A stretch of 64,000 nt of DNA. It comes from a bacterium (GTDB lineage: Bacteria; Bacillota; Bacilli; Lactobacillales; Streptococcaceae). This document shows positions 18,748-22,826 of the stretch, piece by piece. Position 1 is the first letter of the stretch, and every line of letters starts with the position of its first letter. Both the position numbers and the translations under genes were made by a program. The stretch spans positions 62,001-126,000 of the forward strand of contig CAJNDF010000005.1 in assembly GCA_905221455.1 (NCBI GenBank). The letters run 5' to 3'. The notes below the pieces were generated by a model that was not told the origin of the DNA, searched no databases, and saw only the letters and a program-made list of their open reading frames with translations.

Positions 18748-19674
18748 ATGTCTGAAAAATTAGTAGAAATCAAAGATTTAGAAATTTCCTTCGGTGAAGG
18801 AAGTAAGAAGTTTGTCGCGGTTAAAAATGCCAACTTCTTTATCAATAAGGGAGAAACTTTCTCGCTTGTTGGTGAGTCAGGTAGTGGGAAAACAACTATT
18901 GGTCGTGCCATCATTGGTCTAAATGACACAAGTAATGGTGATATCATTTTTGATGGTCAAAAGATTAATGGTAAGAAATCGCGTGAACAAGCTGCGGAAT
19001 TGATTCGTCGTATCCAAATGATTTTCCAAGACCCTGCAGCAAGTTTGAATGAACGTGCGACTGTTGATTATATTATTTCTGAAGGTCTTTACAATCACCG
19101 TCTATTTAAGGATGAAGAGGAACGTAAAGAGAAAGTTAAAAATATTATCCGTGAAGTGGGTCTTCTTGCTGAGCACTTGACTCGTTATCCTCATGAGTTT
19201 TCAGGTGGTCAACGTCAACGTATCGGTATTGCCCGTGCCTTGGTCATGCAACCAGACTTTGTTATTGCGGATGAGCCCATTTCAGCCTTGGACGTTTCTG
19301 TGCGTGCCCAAGTCTTGAACTTGCTCAAAAAATTCCAAAAAGAGCTCGGTTTGACCTATCTCTTTATCGCCCATGACTTGTCGGTCGTTCGTTTTATTTC
19401 AGATCGTATCGCCGTTATTTACAAGGGTGTTATTGTAGAGGTTGCAGAAACAGAAGAATTGTTTAACAATCCAATTCACCCATATACTCAAGCCTTGCTT
19501 TCAGCGGTACCAATTCCAGATCCAATCTTGGAACGTAAGAAGGTCTTGAAGGTTTACGACCCAAGTCAACACGATTATGAGACAGATAAGCCATCCATGG
19601 TTGAAATCCGTCCAGGTCACTATGTTTGGGCTAACCAAGCAGAGTTGGCACGTTATCAACAAGGATTAAACTAA
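18748..19674 (+). CDS. amiF: Oligopeptide ABC transporter ATPase AmiF
   Basis: 308 residues from the ATG at 18748, preceded by AGGAGGAAGG; the open frame upstream lies within amiE. Walker [10 protein letters not shown] (about 43), signature [10 protein letters not shown] (about 152) and Walker [13 protein letters not shown] (about 172) are complete. It is the second ATPase of the Ami importer and the last gene of the operon, which ends in a strong terminator. Confidence 0.95.
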
Positions 19675-19805: not shown

Positions 19806-19834
19806 TTGACAGGTGATGAAAAAGATGGTAAGAT
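19806..19834 (+). promoter_or_regulatory. Promoter of the aromatic amino acid transporter leader
   Basis: Perfect TTGACA (19806-19811), exactly 17 bases, then TAAGAT (19829-19834) with an upstream TGG extended -10 element. Transcription should start near 19841, almost 290 bases before the first transporter gene. Confidence 0.85.
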
Positions 19835-19866
19835 AGGAAACATCAAAAAAGAAAGCAGAAAAAGAA

Positions 19867-19926
19867 ATGAATAAAAGACAAGCTGTAACAATGAATCAAA
19901 ACTTTTACTTTAGCTACTTTAGATAG
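19867..19926 (+). CDS. Putative 19-residue leader peptide rich in Phe and Tyr
   Basis: A 19-codon ORF reading MNKRQAVTMNQNFYFSYFR then TAG. Codons 13-18 are Phe, Tyr, Phe, Ser, Tyr, Phe, so five of six are aromatic; there is no Trp. It begins about 26 bases after the predicted transcription start, with a weak purine-rich binding site (AGAAAAAGAA). The base after its stop codon opens the first pairing segment of the downstream attenuator. Both composition and position match leader peptides such as pheL, where ribosome stalling on scarce aminoacyl-tRNA controls termination. Confidence 0.65.
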   Translation: MNKRQAVTMNQNFYFSYFR

Positions 19927-20098
19927 TGTTTGTAGACATGTCACCATGGATGCAAACAGTTCAAGCAATTTGTTTGTATCTATGTGGCTAAGATTTTTGA
20001 TTGTGGTCCATATAGATGAATATCTAAATGGACTAGCAAAGTTATAACTTGTTAGATTATTTCAAGCATCCGTTTAGATAGTATCTAGGCGGTTTTTT
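19927..20098 (+). promoter_or_regulatory. Multi-hairpin transcription attenuator
   Basis: Seven segments pair in a chain. 0 (19927-19940) with 1 (19945-19958): 12 bp with a 2x2 internal loop. 1 with 2 (19971-19984): 14 bp. 2' (19978-19987) with 3 (20008-20017): 10 bp. 3 (20006-20017) with 4 (20022-20033): 11 bp with one mismatch. 4 (20021-20032) with 5 (20069-20080): 12 bp. 5 (20070-20079) with 6 (20083-20092): 10 bp, then six T, the terminator. OFF is 1:2, 3:4, 5:6 and ON is 0:1, 2:3, 4:5. All pairings were checked base by base. Confidence 0.75.
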
Positions 20099-20128: not shown

Positions 20129-21106
20129 ATGAAAGTTGTTCGAAAATTACTAGCACCCCTCTTGGTAGTGGGGATCCTTTTGACCTCTCTGATCAGTTTG
20201 CATCAGTTGAAGGCAGATAAGAAAAAAGATGTTTTTCGTATCGGTATTTCGCAGTTTATTACCCACCAGTCCTTAGACGCTACTAGAGAAGGATTTGTGG
20301 ATGAGCTGGCCAAGCAAGGCTATGTTGAGGGGAAAAATATTGAGATTGATTTGCAAAATGCACAGGGAGAACAAAGAAATCTAAAAACGATTTCCCAGCA
20401 ACTAGCAGAATCTAGTGATGTCGTTCTAGCCATCGCAACGCCTTCTGCTCAGAGTTTGGCCAATACAACACAAACGACACCGGTTATCTTTTCAGCTGTA
20501 ACAGACCCTGTTAGTGCTAAATTGGTTGAGTCAAGAGAACACCCTGGGGGCAATGTGACGGGAACAAGCGACCAGTCATCGGATGCCATTTCAACCCAAA
20601 TCAATTTGATAAAGAAAGTGTTGCCAAAGGCTAAAACGATTGGAATCCTCTATACTCAGAGCGAGCCAAACTCAGTTGTCCAAAAGGATGAAGCTAAGCG
20701 CCTTCTGGAAGAAAAAGGCTTTACCGTTGTTGAAAAAACAATCTTGGACAGTAACAATGTCAAGGCGGCAGCAGAGAGCTTGATGGCAGAGGTGGATATG
20801 GTTTTTGTACCAACGGACAATATCATTTCGTCAACCATGGAAACAGTCAAGCAGGTTTCTATTAAACACAAGGTTCCAGTATTTGGTGGTTCAACAGAAA
20901 TGATTGCTGTTGGTGGCTTGTATAACTACGGTACCAATTATGAAGAATTGGGACGGCAGACAGCCCGCATGTTGATTCGTGTTTTAAAAGGTGAGAAGCC
21001 AGAAAATATAGCAGTTGAGTTGCCTGAAAAATTGGAATTGCATACCAATAAAGAAATGGCAGATGCACTAGGAATTGATATCAGTAAGTTAGAGGGCAAG
21101 GAATAG
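20129..21106 (+). CDS. trpX: TrpX-type ABC transporter substrate-binding protein (aromatic amino acids)
   Basis: 325 residues of the ABC_sub_bind family (PF04392), two Rossmann-like lobes with landmarks IGISQFITHQSLDATREGF near the start and PTDNIISSTMETVKQ near 230. The pneumococcal homologue has been crystallised with L-Trp, so tryptophan or tyrosine is the likely ligand. The N-terminal hydrophobic helix (about 7-24) has no lipobox Cys, unusual for a Gram-positive binding protein. It heads a three-gene operon behind the attenuator and has a GAGAAGGA site. Confidence 0.85.
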   Translation: MKVVRKLLAPLLVVGILLTSLISLHQLKADKKKDVFRIGISQFITHQSLDATREGFVDELAKQGYVEGKNIEIDLQNAQGEQRNLKTISQQLAESSDVVLAIATPSAQSLANTTQTTPVIFSAVTDPVSAKLVESREHPGGNVTGTSDQSSDAISTQINLIKKVLPKAKTIGILYTQSEPNSVVQKDEAKRLLEEKGFTVVEKTILDSNNVKAAAESLMAEVDMVFVPTDNIISSTMETVKQVSIKHKVPVFGGSTEMIAVGGLYNYGTNYEELGRQTARMLIRVLKGEKPENIAVELPEKLELHTNKEMADALGIDISKLEGKE

Positions 21107-21116
21107 GAGGTTTAAG

Positions 21117-22010
21117 ATGAGTTTTGTATTATCTAGTTTATCAGAAGGTTTGTTGTGGTCGATTATGGCTATTGGGGTCTACTTGACTTTCCGTATTTTG
21201 GATATTGCGGATATGACTGCTGAAGGAGCCTTTCCTCTGGGTGCAGCTGTTGTTGTATCACAGATACAGGCAGGGACAAATCCTTGGATTGCGACCTTAC
21301 TTGCTTTGTTGGCAGGTATGGTAGCAGGTCTTGTATCAGGAATTCTCCACACCAAGATGAAAATCCCAGCTCTCTTGACAGGGATTGTGACCTTGACAGG
21401 GCTCTATTCAATCAATATTAAAATCATGGGCAGTGTGCCCAATCTTTCTTTGGGAGATTCTTCAACTGTCTTTAAGCAATTAGCGAGCTTGGGGCTGACA
21501 AATGAAGAAGCTGTTTTCTCATTCAGTTTGGCCTGTCTCTTACTTGTTTGTTTGGTCTTGACTCTTTTGATGAAGACGGAGATTGGATTGGTCTTGCGTT
21601 CGACTGGGGACAATATTCCGATGAGTGAGGCCAATGGGGTCAATGTAGACACCATGAAGATTGTTGGTTATATGATTTCAAATGGTCTGATTGCTCTGTG
21701 TGGTTCCTTATTTGCTCAAAATGATGGATTTTCAGATGTAACCTCTGGGACAGGGACCATTGTTGTTGGTTTGAGTGCAGTCATTATTGCAGAAGTCTTG
21801 ATTCACGATTTGACCATTGGAGGACGTTTGTTATCCATCGGAATCGGTGCCATTGTTTACCGTTTGATTATTTTAAATATCTATGAAATTCCAAATCTAG
21901 ATCAAAATCTGGTTCGTCTCTTTAATGCAATCTTGCTAGCCTTGGTTTTATTTGCACCAGAGTTGCAAAAGAGATTAAAGATTCGTGGTTTGAAACTGAG
22001 AAATGAATAG
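21117..22010 (+). CDS. ABC transporter permease partner of TrpX
   Basis: 297 residues with eight or nine membrane helices, of the BPD_transp_2 (LivH/RbsC-like) type normally paired with PF04392 binding proteins. A conserved ATPase contact is visible near LRSTGDNIPMSEANGV (about 158-173). It forms the membrane channel, presumably as a homodimer because no second permease gene is present. It is ten bases from trpX with AGGAGG upstream. Confidence 0.88.
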   Translation: MSFVLSSLSEGLLWSIMAIGVYLTFRILDIADMTAEGAFPLGAAVVVSQIQAGTNPWIATLLALLAGMVAGLVSGILHTKMKIPALLTGIVTLTGLYSINIKIMGSVPNLSLGDSSTVFKQLASLGLTNEEAVFSFSLACLLLVCLVLTLLMKTEIGLVLRSTGDNIPMSEANGVNVDTMKIVGYMISNGLIALCGSLFAQNDGFSDVTSGTGTIVVGLSAVIIAEVLIHDLTIGGRLLSIGIGAIVYRLIILNIYEIPNLDQNLVRLFNAILLALVLFAPELQKRLKIRGLKLRNE

Positions 22011-22022
22011 GAGGAGAAAGTT

Positions 22023-22826
22023 ATGGCAAGTTTGTTAACACTTGAAAATATTCACAAAACATTTGAAGCAGGGACGGTCAATGAAAACCATGTCCTCAAA
22101 GGATTAGATTTAGAGGTTGAAGAGGGAGATTTTATCTCTGTGATTGGTGGAAATGGCGCAGGGAAATCCACTTTGATGAATATCTTGGCTGGAAATCTAT
22201 CTGTGGACGAAGGAGACCTTTTGTTGGAAGGAAAATCCATTAAAAATCTGAGTGTACGAAAGAGAGCCAAGGATATTGCCCGTGTTTTTCAAGATCCTAA
22301 GATGGGGACAGCTTCTCGTTTGACGATTGAGGAGAATATGGCCATTGCCTTGAGGCGTGGACAAAAAAGAGGGCTTGGCTGGGGCGTGAAGGAAAAGGAC
22401 AGAATCCAGTTCCAAGAGGCCTTGAAAGAGTTGAATATCGGCCTTGAAAATCGCTTGAAAGTGGATACTCAATACCTTTCAGGAGGACAAAGACAGGCCT
22501 TGACCCTAGTCATGGCAGCCTTGGTGAAACCTAAGCTCTTGTTGTTGGATGAACACACTGCGGCACTTGACCCGAAAACGAGTCAAATGGTGATGGATTT
22601 GACGCAAAAGATTGTGGAGCACCATCAGCTGACTACTCTGATGATTACCCACGATATGAACCATGCGATTGAATACGGCAATCGTCTCATTATGCTTTAT
22701 CAAGGCAAGATAGTGGTGGATGTCAAGGGGGAGGAGAAAAAGCATTTGACAGTTGAAGACCTCATGCATCTCTTCCAGAAAAATAGTGGCCAAAGTCTAG
22801 TCAGTGATGAATTGGTTTTGGGATAA
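22023..22826 (+). CDS. ABC transporter ATPase partner of TrpX
   Basis: 267 residues. Walker A GGNGAGKST (about 43), signature YLSGGQRQALTL (about 152) and Walker B LLLLDEHTAALDP (about 176) are present; the residue after the catalytic Glu is His instead of the usual Pro, a variant common in this subfamily. It energises the TrpX-type importer and ends the operon at a terminator shared with convergent treR. Confidence 0.88.
   Translation: MASLLTLENIHKTFEAGTVNENHVLKGLDLEVEEGDFISVIGGNGAGKSTLMNILAGNLSVDEGDLLLEGKSIKNLSVRKRAKDIARVFQDPKMGTASRLTIEENMAIALRRGQKRGLGWGVKEKDRIQFQEALKELNIGLENRLKVDTQYLSGGQRQALTLVMAALVKPKLLLLDEHTAALDPKTSQMVMDLTQKIVEHHQLTTLMITHDMNHAIEYGNRLIMLYQGKIVVDVKGEEKKHLTVEDLMHLFQKNSGQSLVSDELVLG

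Follow-up and report, generated by a model that had tools for sequence, protein, structure and literature searches.

The window, a stretch of 64,000 nucleotides, appears from its relatives to belong to a Streptococcus of the mitis group, and the binding protein that it encodes was 100% identical to S. mitis records in a protein search. The element described here lies between an oligopeptide-type ABC operon on its 5' side and a three-gene ABC operon on its 3' side (Table 1). The upstream OppF-like ORF ends at 19674 and is separated from the leader element by a promoter-like site. This site, TTGACA and TAAGAT with a 17-base spacer, had been proposed as a promoter in an earlier sequence-only reading and was recovered by a consensus scan; the scan gave 3 promoter-like sites against 3.3 expected, a number that is not above that of shuffled sequence. 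Transcription would start near 19841. When the window was searched against Rfam at gathering thresholds the sole match was a tRNA, and the family discussed below, RF02863, surfaced only in a permissive search. A T-box (RF00230) was considered for the leader and rejected, with no match on it at gathering thresholds or at E values up to 5.

The leader contains an ORF of 19 codons that ends in a TAG stop at 19924-19926. It reads MNKRQAVTMNQNFYFSYFR, as the sequence-only reading had stated, and five of the six codons from 13 to 18 are aromatic. The window copy has a weak Shine-Dalgarno sequence (GAAAGCAGAAAAAGAA-ATG), and a clear one is present in many copies outside the mitis group.

Seven segments pairing as a chain of six helices had been claimed for the leader. 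All six helices were found again when the pairing was re-derived, with 10 to 15 pairs each: 12 pairs for 0:1 (8 + 4, with an inner loop), 15 for 1:2, 11 for 2:3, 13 for 3:4 (8 + 5), 12 for 4:5 and 10 for 5:6, the last followed by TTTTTT. Segment 0 begins at 19927, the base after the stop codon, also as claimed. The seven segments exist, however an eighth strand had been missed, as segment -1 inside the ORF pairs with segment 2 and covaries with it. The structure of the leader is beyond chance. Its minimum free energy was -59.4 compared to -37.8 (sd 3.8) in 200 dinucleotide shuffles, giving a z of -5.74 with no shuffle as stable, and stems of 10 bp or more that include 3 or more G-C pairs numbered 4 compared to a shuffled mean of 0.21, with 0 of 500 shuffles having as many.

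Table 1. Positions of the leader features and the downstream genes in the window.
Feature	Position	Strand	Evidence
Promoter	19806..19834	+	-35 TTGACA 19806-19811; -10 TAAGAT 19829-19834; 17-base spacer; TG before -10; consensus scan
Leader ORF, MNKRQAVTMNQNFYFSYFR-stop	19867..19926	+	ATG-started ORF in same frame in 95/95 diverse copies vs 7 and 0 in other frames
Aromatic codon run F Y F S Y F, codons 13-18, proposed stalling codons	19903..19920	+	Codons -9 and -3 F/Y in 231/232 each
Segment -1, last ORF codons, pairs with 19977-19992	19909..19925	+	Helix derivation, RF02863 alignment, covariation
Segment 0	19927..19940	+	0:1 95.3% paired in 95 sequences, with covariation
Segment 1	19945..19959	+	Helix derivation and alignment
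Segment 2, partner of 1, 3 or -1	19970..19992	+	Helix derivation and covariation count
Segment 3	20004..20018	+	Helix derivation and alignment
Segment 4, partner of 3, or of 5 as antiterminator	20021..20035	+	Helix derivation, duplex swaps, alignment
Segment 5, 5' arm of terminator / 3' arm of antiterminator	20069..20080	+	Terminator scan, helix derivation, alignment
Segment 6 (20083-20092) and U tract (20093-20098), intrinsic terminator	20083..20098	+	Terminator scan, helix derivation, alignment
Substrate-binding protein, TrpX-like paralogue (ABC_sub_bind)	20129..21106	+	NF041285 332.5 bits, cut-off 390; Ser-255 and Tyr-271 at two ligand-selecting sites
Transporter permease (BPD_transp_2)	21117..22010	+	Domain match
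Transporter ATPase (ABC_tran)	22023..22826	+	Domain match

Distribution and conservation of the leader family

The window leader aligned end to end with positions 1-196 of the RF02863 model (sRNA_2410, 'Enterococcus sRNA 2410') at 57.6 bits and an E value of 5.2e-9, a score that falls under the gathering cut-off of 61. It also shares the consensus structure of the family, which starts with helix -1:2 around 0:1. Rfam files RF02863 as an sRNA gene; sRNA_2410 was described as a 195-nt RNA of E. faecium, seen in RNA-seq data and giving two transcripts on a Northern blot, and the words leader, attenuat and terminator are absent from the main text of that paper (PMC5593968).

Of 395 genomes of the order, 215 had a match to RF02863 at E 0.001 or better, representing 52 of 80 genera with up to 5 copies per genome, and a copy over the cut-off was present in 98 of the 395. 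A sample of the class gave matches in 27 of 299 genomes, five of these outside the order. The loci read in the order were the best 30 and 80 others chosen among the matches listed. A leader ORF of the same kind was present at 29 of the best 30, and the thirtieth, L168, was overlooked by the anchor pattern because Gly replaces the last Arg, giving FSYFG. At the DNA level, matches were obtained in 98 of the 197 Streptococcus genomes searched, many of the distant ones spanning from the aromatic-codon end to segment 3 or 4, and leaders were read for 90 of these 98. From 56 loci found by protein, 32 were used; L034, L038 and L042 match by their 3' end only, and 21 (L066-L086) have no leader match, 20 of them coming from other groups and one (L081) from a Streptococcus. 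The element is thus present in Streptococcus as first described, however it is more widely spread, in enterococci and relatives, and was already in Rfam under an sRNA label that misses the proposed attenuator function. The comparison suggests a single RNA family that streptococci share with enterococci and their relatives, and that probably turns on aromatic amino acid genes when these amino acids are in short supply.

Outside the order, RF02863-like leaders were seen before pheA with the peptide FFFSDFR (L306 and L307, pheA identified by HMM for L306) and before DAHP synthase with FYFSYF (L300-L302, by HMM for L300). Weak RF02863 matches with leaders of mixed aromatic codons precede transketolase and DAHP synthase at L304 (YYYFGWFS) and a sodium-dependent transporter at L305 (WYSYRR). 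At L097:743-974 the peptide reads FEFSFFR, and about 35 additional bases that could fold into a hairpin separate segment 2 from segment 4. In many strains a small repeat-like insert separates the terminator from the gene of the binding protein (L048:430-590 and further loci of the mitis group), the distance from the end of the match to the gene being 108-176 bases at the mitis-group loci with the insert.

Two collected sets of leaders were defined by an anchor pattern, TTY-Arg-stop or TTTAG[AG]TA. As the pattern fixes the last codons, their conservation follows in part from the way the sets were collected. Codons -9 and -3 lie outside the pattern, and at each of them 98 of the 99 diverse copies had F or Y. 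An ATG-started ORF runs into the conserved codons in 231 of the 232 collected copies, many of which are near-identical. A Shine-Dalgarno-like site accompanied the in-frame ORF in 89 of 95 diverse copies, compared to none of the ORFs in the two other frames. The peptide ends mostly in [F/Y][F/Y][F/Y][S/G][F/Y]FR-stop across the 90 Streptococcus genomes and 32 protein-found loci, with few exceptions, and Trp occurs in only 2 of the 232 peptides, those of L126 (after a lost stop) and L218. The conservation of the ORF and its aromatic codons, which the sequence-only reading had offered as a check, was therefore found in the relatives with few oddities. The L126 peptide is three codons longer through loss of the stop. 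A one-base frameshift is present at L138, where the end still reads ...YFYSYF, and L299 has a shorter peptide end, ...YYFSF.

The gene next to the leader in the 95 diverse copies was that of a TrpX-like binding protein in 62 (55 called by pattern and tree, 7 by HMM), aroE in 25, DAHP synthase in 4, pheA in 2 and aroC in 1, the last copy being L231. In 94 of 95 the leader is therefore followed, on the same strand, by a gene of aromatic synthesis or of a TrpX-like binding protein. Judged by gene type, and with a presumed import specificity, the products of these 94 synthesise or take up the amino acid that the leader codons specify. At L231:504-3501 the leader is followed by a long ORF whose domains are of the polar amino-acid binding (cystine/lysine) type. 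Among the Streptococcus leaders that were read, a TrpX-like binding protein is next in nearly all; the exceptions are L123, with a transposase-like ORF of 157 aa after the leader, and L010 (G040:C1:858995-859909), which retains the leader at 96% and has two in-frame stops in the binding-protein gene. An apparent binding protein-permease fusion ORF of 656-675 aa was seen at L141, L144, L297 and L298, with both domains confirmed in L141 and L144, and other genomes have two adjoining binding-protein genes.

Covariation of the helices

The alignment used for covariation contained 95 copies less than 80% identical by a simple measure, corresponding to the 99 diverse copies minus L122, L138, L242 and L256; at L138 the terminator had been wrongly located. 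Paired cells and two-sided changes were compared with the mean of 200 column permutations, and slid controls were added. Helix 5:6 was 86.4% paired, with 120 two-sided changes compared to 25.7 permuted, and 0:1 was 95.3% paired, with 48 compared to 12.0. Helix -1:2 was 93.8% paired (39 against 15.6), and when -1:2 and 0:1 were taken jointly 94.5% of the cells were paired with 87 two-sided cells, compared to 27.4 when shuffled (0 of 500) and to at most 44.7% and 37 cells in the slid controls. Helix 4:5 was 73.1% paired with 75 changes against 29.8; one slid control reached 74, but with 36% paired.

The remaining helices behaved differently. Helix 3:4 was 66.1% paired with 57 changes against 42.3, its pairing was inside the permuted range, and over the 95 copies it failed the slid controls, which gave 61 (+1) and 71 (+3) two-sided cells. 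In the 22 Streptococcus copies the same helix was 83.3% paired, with 25 changes compared to 11.2. Helix 1:2 was 86.0% paired (39 against 30.0) and 2:3 was 83.4% paired (10 against 6.8), the pairing of 2:3 being no better than permutation; over the 95 copies no covariation was found in 2:3 beyond permuted columns or slid controls. The 22 Streptococcus copies gave 3 and 2 changes for 1:2 and 2:3, compared to 2.4 and 2.0 permuted. As these counts are near the permuted values, 1:2 and 2:3 rest on conservation rather than covariation. The strands of both helices each have several simultaneous partners. Among the six helices first proposed, compensatory change was thus observed order-wide in 0:1, 4:5 and 5:6 and in Streptococcus only in 3:4, with little in 1:2 and none in 2:3.

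The changes in segment -1 involve the aromatic codons themselves. Replacement of TTT (Phe) by TAC or TAT (Tyr) is matched in segment 2 at two neighbouring pairs, by UA to AU in 13 of 95 copies and UA to CG in 9 of 95. In these changes the codon remains aromatic and its base pair is maintained, which is the mark of a double constraint.

The cognate 4:5 duplex was stronger than the mean of swapped duplexes in 201 of 230 copies, and in 65 of the 230 it was not past a z of -2 relative to shuffled sequence. The stricter terminator finder used in this comparison found no terminator in L140 and L244; it replaced a first finder, whose choice of the 4:5 hairpin as the terminator of L023 was rejected. 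Judged by the compensatory changes in 4:5 and 5:6, the terminator and antiterminator are mutually exclusive and are maintained as such.

The binding-protein paralogue and the tryptophan leaders

The downstream operon had been read as an aromatic amino acid ABC transporter. The ABC operon was confirmed, and the binding protein proved to be a paralogue of TrpX, scoring short of the equivalog cut-off of NF041285. TrpX itself scored over this cut-off in 58 of 59 Streptococcus genomes, and lower-scoring paralogues were also present in 28. A leader match was obtained by DNA search in 25 of these 28 genomes, and the leaders of G021, G056 and G059 were found by reading. In the 31 Streptococcus genomes without the paralogue the DNA search yielded just a 27-base piece in G005, which was rejected as a leader after a pattern search around it gave none.

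A quick tree separated 55 proteins with Phe/Tyr leaders from 42 TrpX proteins by a branch with 100% support. The 42 TrpX proteins comprised 24 with Trp leaders, 11 with T-boxes and 7 for which neither was found. The closest solved structures to the window protein were CD0873 of C. difficile (6hni, 231.9 bits), VC_1101 (3lkv, 205.2) and SP1069 (3lft, 203.8). These bind Tyr, Phe and Trp respectively, and two residues are said to set the choice (PMC6816091). At the first site Tyr-279 of CD0873 and Tyr-262 of VC_1101 correspond to Gln-284 in the Trp binder SP1069, and at the second Glu-263 of CD0873 corresponds to Ala in both VC_1101 and SP1069, as given in the same source (PMC6816091). Placed by alignment, the window protein has Tyr-271 at the first site and Ser-255 at the second, and so has no Trp-permitting Gln. 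Across the tree, all 55 Phe/Tyr-leader proteins had Tyr at the first site and all 42 TrpX proteins had Gln; the second was Ser in 50 and Ala in 5 of the former, compared to Val or Ala in the latter. Since the Tyr/Gln split follows the type of leader, the leader codons and the pocket change together. With the transporter being a TrpX paralogue, Phe/Tyr rather than Trp is the likely cargo of the window transporter.

A T-box was present at 11 of 20 TrpX loci and the trpB motif, RF04312, at 2 of 20, where it follows ORFs ending NWQNWRR and NWQNWRK. RF04312 matched in 87 of 148 genomes of the order and was over its cut-off in 35. This motif, also named SRC-39-1, has been presented as a strong riboswitch candidate, with a classic attenuator left possible (PMC11109978). 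At 30 loci among the best 32 matches (L314-L343) an ORF with Trp codons and a Shine-Dalgarno-like site was present in 30 of 30, its stop lying 12-24 bases upstream of the motif (at about base 1501 in these loci). The spacing W..W occurred at 27 of the 30 loci compared to 11 of 600 control positions, 47 of which had two or more Trp; the procedure for choosing the ORF favours Trp, therefore the 600-position control is the fair comparison. Three of the 30 loci lie before trpB by HMM and 22 before a TrpX-like protein of the tree. At L344 and L345, sub-cut-off RF04312 matches elsewhere in the phylum, no Trp leader was seen.

Many peptides of the RF02863 and RF04312 families have a QLN motif in common, and segments 3-6 of the window gave a weak match to RF04312 (28.4 bits, cut-off 59). 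As far as it is described in the source, RF04312 resembles the window leader in having two hairpins, the second a terminator, with an antiterminator in the right arm of the first, and a leader ORF lies ahead. It differs in that the codons are Trp, mostly as W..W-R, rather than Phe/Tyr, and in that it precedes TrpX or trpB. It is rather probable that RF02863 and RF04312 are sister ribosome-read attenuators of common origin, which split through a codon swap alongside the Tyr/Gln swap in the pocket. The RF02863 branch would carry Phe/Tyr codons before aromatic synthesis genes and the TrpX paralogue, and the RF04312 branch Trp codons before TrpX and trpB. The Phe/Tyr branch would be a relay of eight strands, one of them formed by the stalling codons, in which a ribosome more than 100 bases away decides termination and untranslated RNA terminates by default.

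Probable attenuation by phenylalanine and tyrosine supply

The ORF, its codons, the helices, the terminator, the covariation of most helices, the gene context and the ligand-site residue are all present in the sequences. The attenuator proposed in the sequence-only reading is supported by the comparative tests of the ORF, the aromatic codons and most of the helices, and ribosome-mediated transcription attenuation by Phe/Tyr supply via the leader peptide is highly probable. What follows on translation, ribosome stalling, the length of RNA masked, the response to amino acid supply and the cargo is inferred from these. When no ribosome is present, segment -1, which contains the aromatic codons, would pair with segment 2 around hairpin 0:1, so that 3:4 and terminator 5:6 form; helix -1:2 would in this way give termination by default in untranslated RNA. 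When charged tRNA-Phe and tRNA-Tyr are ample the ribosome would reach the stop and mask segments -1 and 0, leading to 1:2, 3:4 and 5:6 and to the end of transcription. When they are short the ribosome would pause at the first aromatic codons, masking -1 and leaving 0 open, and formation of 0:1, 2:3 and antiterminator 4:5 would allow transcription to continue into the operon, which in the window probably encodes an ABC importer of Phe/Tyr.

These states were modelled by equilibrium folding. Window RNA ended after segment 5 folded into -1:2, 0:1 and 3:4 with the whole ORF free, into 0:1, 2:3 and 4:5 when freed just upstream of segment 0 (the stalled state), and into 1:2 and 3:4 when freed from +21 (the ribosome at the stop). 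The folds first proposed for the stop and stalled states were thus obtained at this RNA end, however the stalled-state minimum was 1:2 and 3:4, on the terminator side, if the RNA ended after segment 4 or the U tract. RNA starting at the first aromatic codon held -1:2 up to segment 4 and switched to 4:5 at segment 5. For RNA from the first aromatic codon, standing for the ribosome-free case, the window gave a 4:5 probability of 0.90, with 1.00 in the stalled state and 0.72 at the stop, compared to family medians of 0.58, 0.80 and 0.67. This probability was higher stalled than at the stop in 46 of 95 copies and lower in 9. Segment 4 was less paired stalled than at the stop in 24 of 88 copies and more in 6, and less paired stalled than without a ribosome in 25 and more in 3. 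In the model the direction is right and the contrast modest, equilibrium folding being weakly informative across the family.

An arrest-peptide switch of the TnaC type, where the nascent ...FSYFR and free Phe or Tyr rather than tRNA shortage stall the ribosome near the stop, is unlikely. Such a switch would account for the nearly invariant C-terminal [FY][SG][FY]FR and for the stop directly after it in 221 of 232 copies, a conservation partly built into the anchor pattern. However, the nucleotides of the end codons also form one side of a helix that covaries, Phe and Tyr replace each other, 11 of 232 copies have the stop three codons further on, and the ends of L168 (FSYFG), L138 (frameshifted, ...YFYSYF) and L299 (...YYFSF) deviate. 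Termination would be favoured whether the ribosome were held at the stop or released, so that arrest at the stop alone would give no read-through state. Direct binding of an aromatic amino acid by a riboswitch, as speculated for the trpB motif (PMC11109978), is very improbable. It would fit a conserved RNA structure ahead of aromatic genes and the filing of the trpB motif as a strong candidate, yet a cognate-codon-rich ORF is kept in both families and the codon letters covary with their helix partner while staying aromatic. Less probable again is an action in trans as a small RNA, which the Rfam name 'Enterococcus sRNA 2410' implies, with the downstream gene incidental: the 195-nt RNA detected as two transcripts in E. 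faecium (PMC5593968) would agree with this, but in the 95 diverse copies the RNA is directly upstream of amino-acid genes on the same strand, and termination of the leader would produce an RNA of this kind. Attenuation may be accompanied by a further function in trans. That the element, which does end in a terminator, merely terminates the upstream OppF-type operon, with the promoter and ORF unrelated, is scarcely credible given the promoter-like site in between and the quite different genes that related RNAs with the ORF precede elsewhere. The element is most likely a Phe/Tyr leader-peptide attenuator, and the original observation is confirmed as real and broader than first described.

The trp, pheA and pheST attenuators of E. 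coli have a leader peptide with cognate codons, alternative hairpins, an intrinsic terminator and default termination in ribosome-free RNA. They use four segments, whereas the window leader has eight strands and one arm of a conserved helix is made up of its proposed stalling codons; helix -1:2 would be the counterpart of default termination in E. coli trp. Like the window leader, the Leu-rich leader peptide of the Staphylococcus aureus ilv attenuator (PMC5794164) and the His leader peptides of hisS/hisZ in Bacilli (PMC2965389) are amino-acid leader peptides with transcription attenuation in Firmicutes, and therefore the kind of mechanism is already known. Those systems concern other amino acids and genes, and no RNA structure of the window type was seen in the accessible parts of the two sources. 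The uORFC-13-1 motif of Acholeplasma (24 representatives) shares with the window family a Phe-codon uORF and a terminator before a DAHP synthase gene, aroF, but occurs in another bacterial group (PMC8632094). The T-box of Streptococcus suis trpXYZ also controls a transporter, paralogous to that of the window, through a terminator and amino acid supply, however it senses tRNA-Trp directly without a ribosome (PMC9382623). The accessible text of a ribosome-profiling paper on small ORFs of S. pneumoniae contains nothing on this leader ORF (PMC9426450). No Phe/Tyr leader-peptide attenuator of Lactobacillales was found among the titles and abstracts listed, a set that mostly excludes subscription journals. 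In this literature no account was found of the RF02863 family as an attenuator, of the codon swap or of the eight-strand relay.

Amino acid control of this sort in the Lactobacillales is mostly credited to T-boxes. If the present reading is true, streptococci, enterococci and their relatives would gain an RNA regulon for phenylalanine and tyrosine, and one listed sRNA (RF02863) and one riboswitch candidate (RF04312) would be re-assigned. The two families would represent a natural codon-swap experiment between paralogous transporters, with the ligand site changing in step, and the long relay would allow the distant effect of a stalled ribosome to be tested strand by strand.
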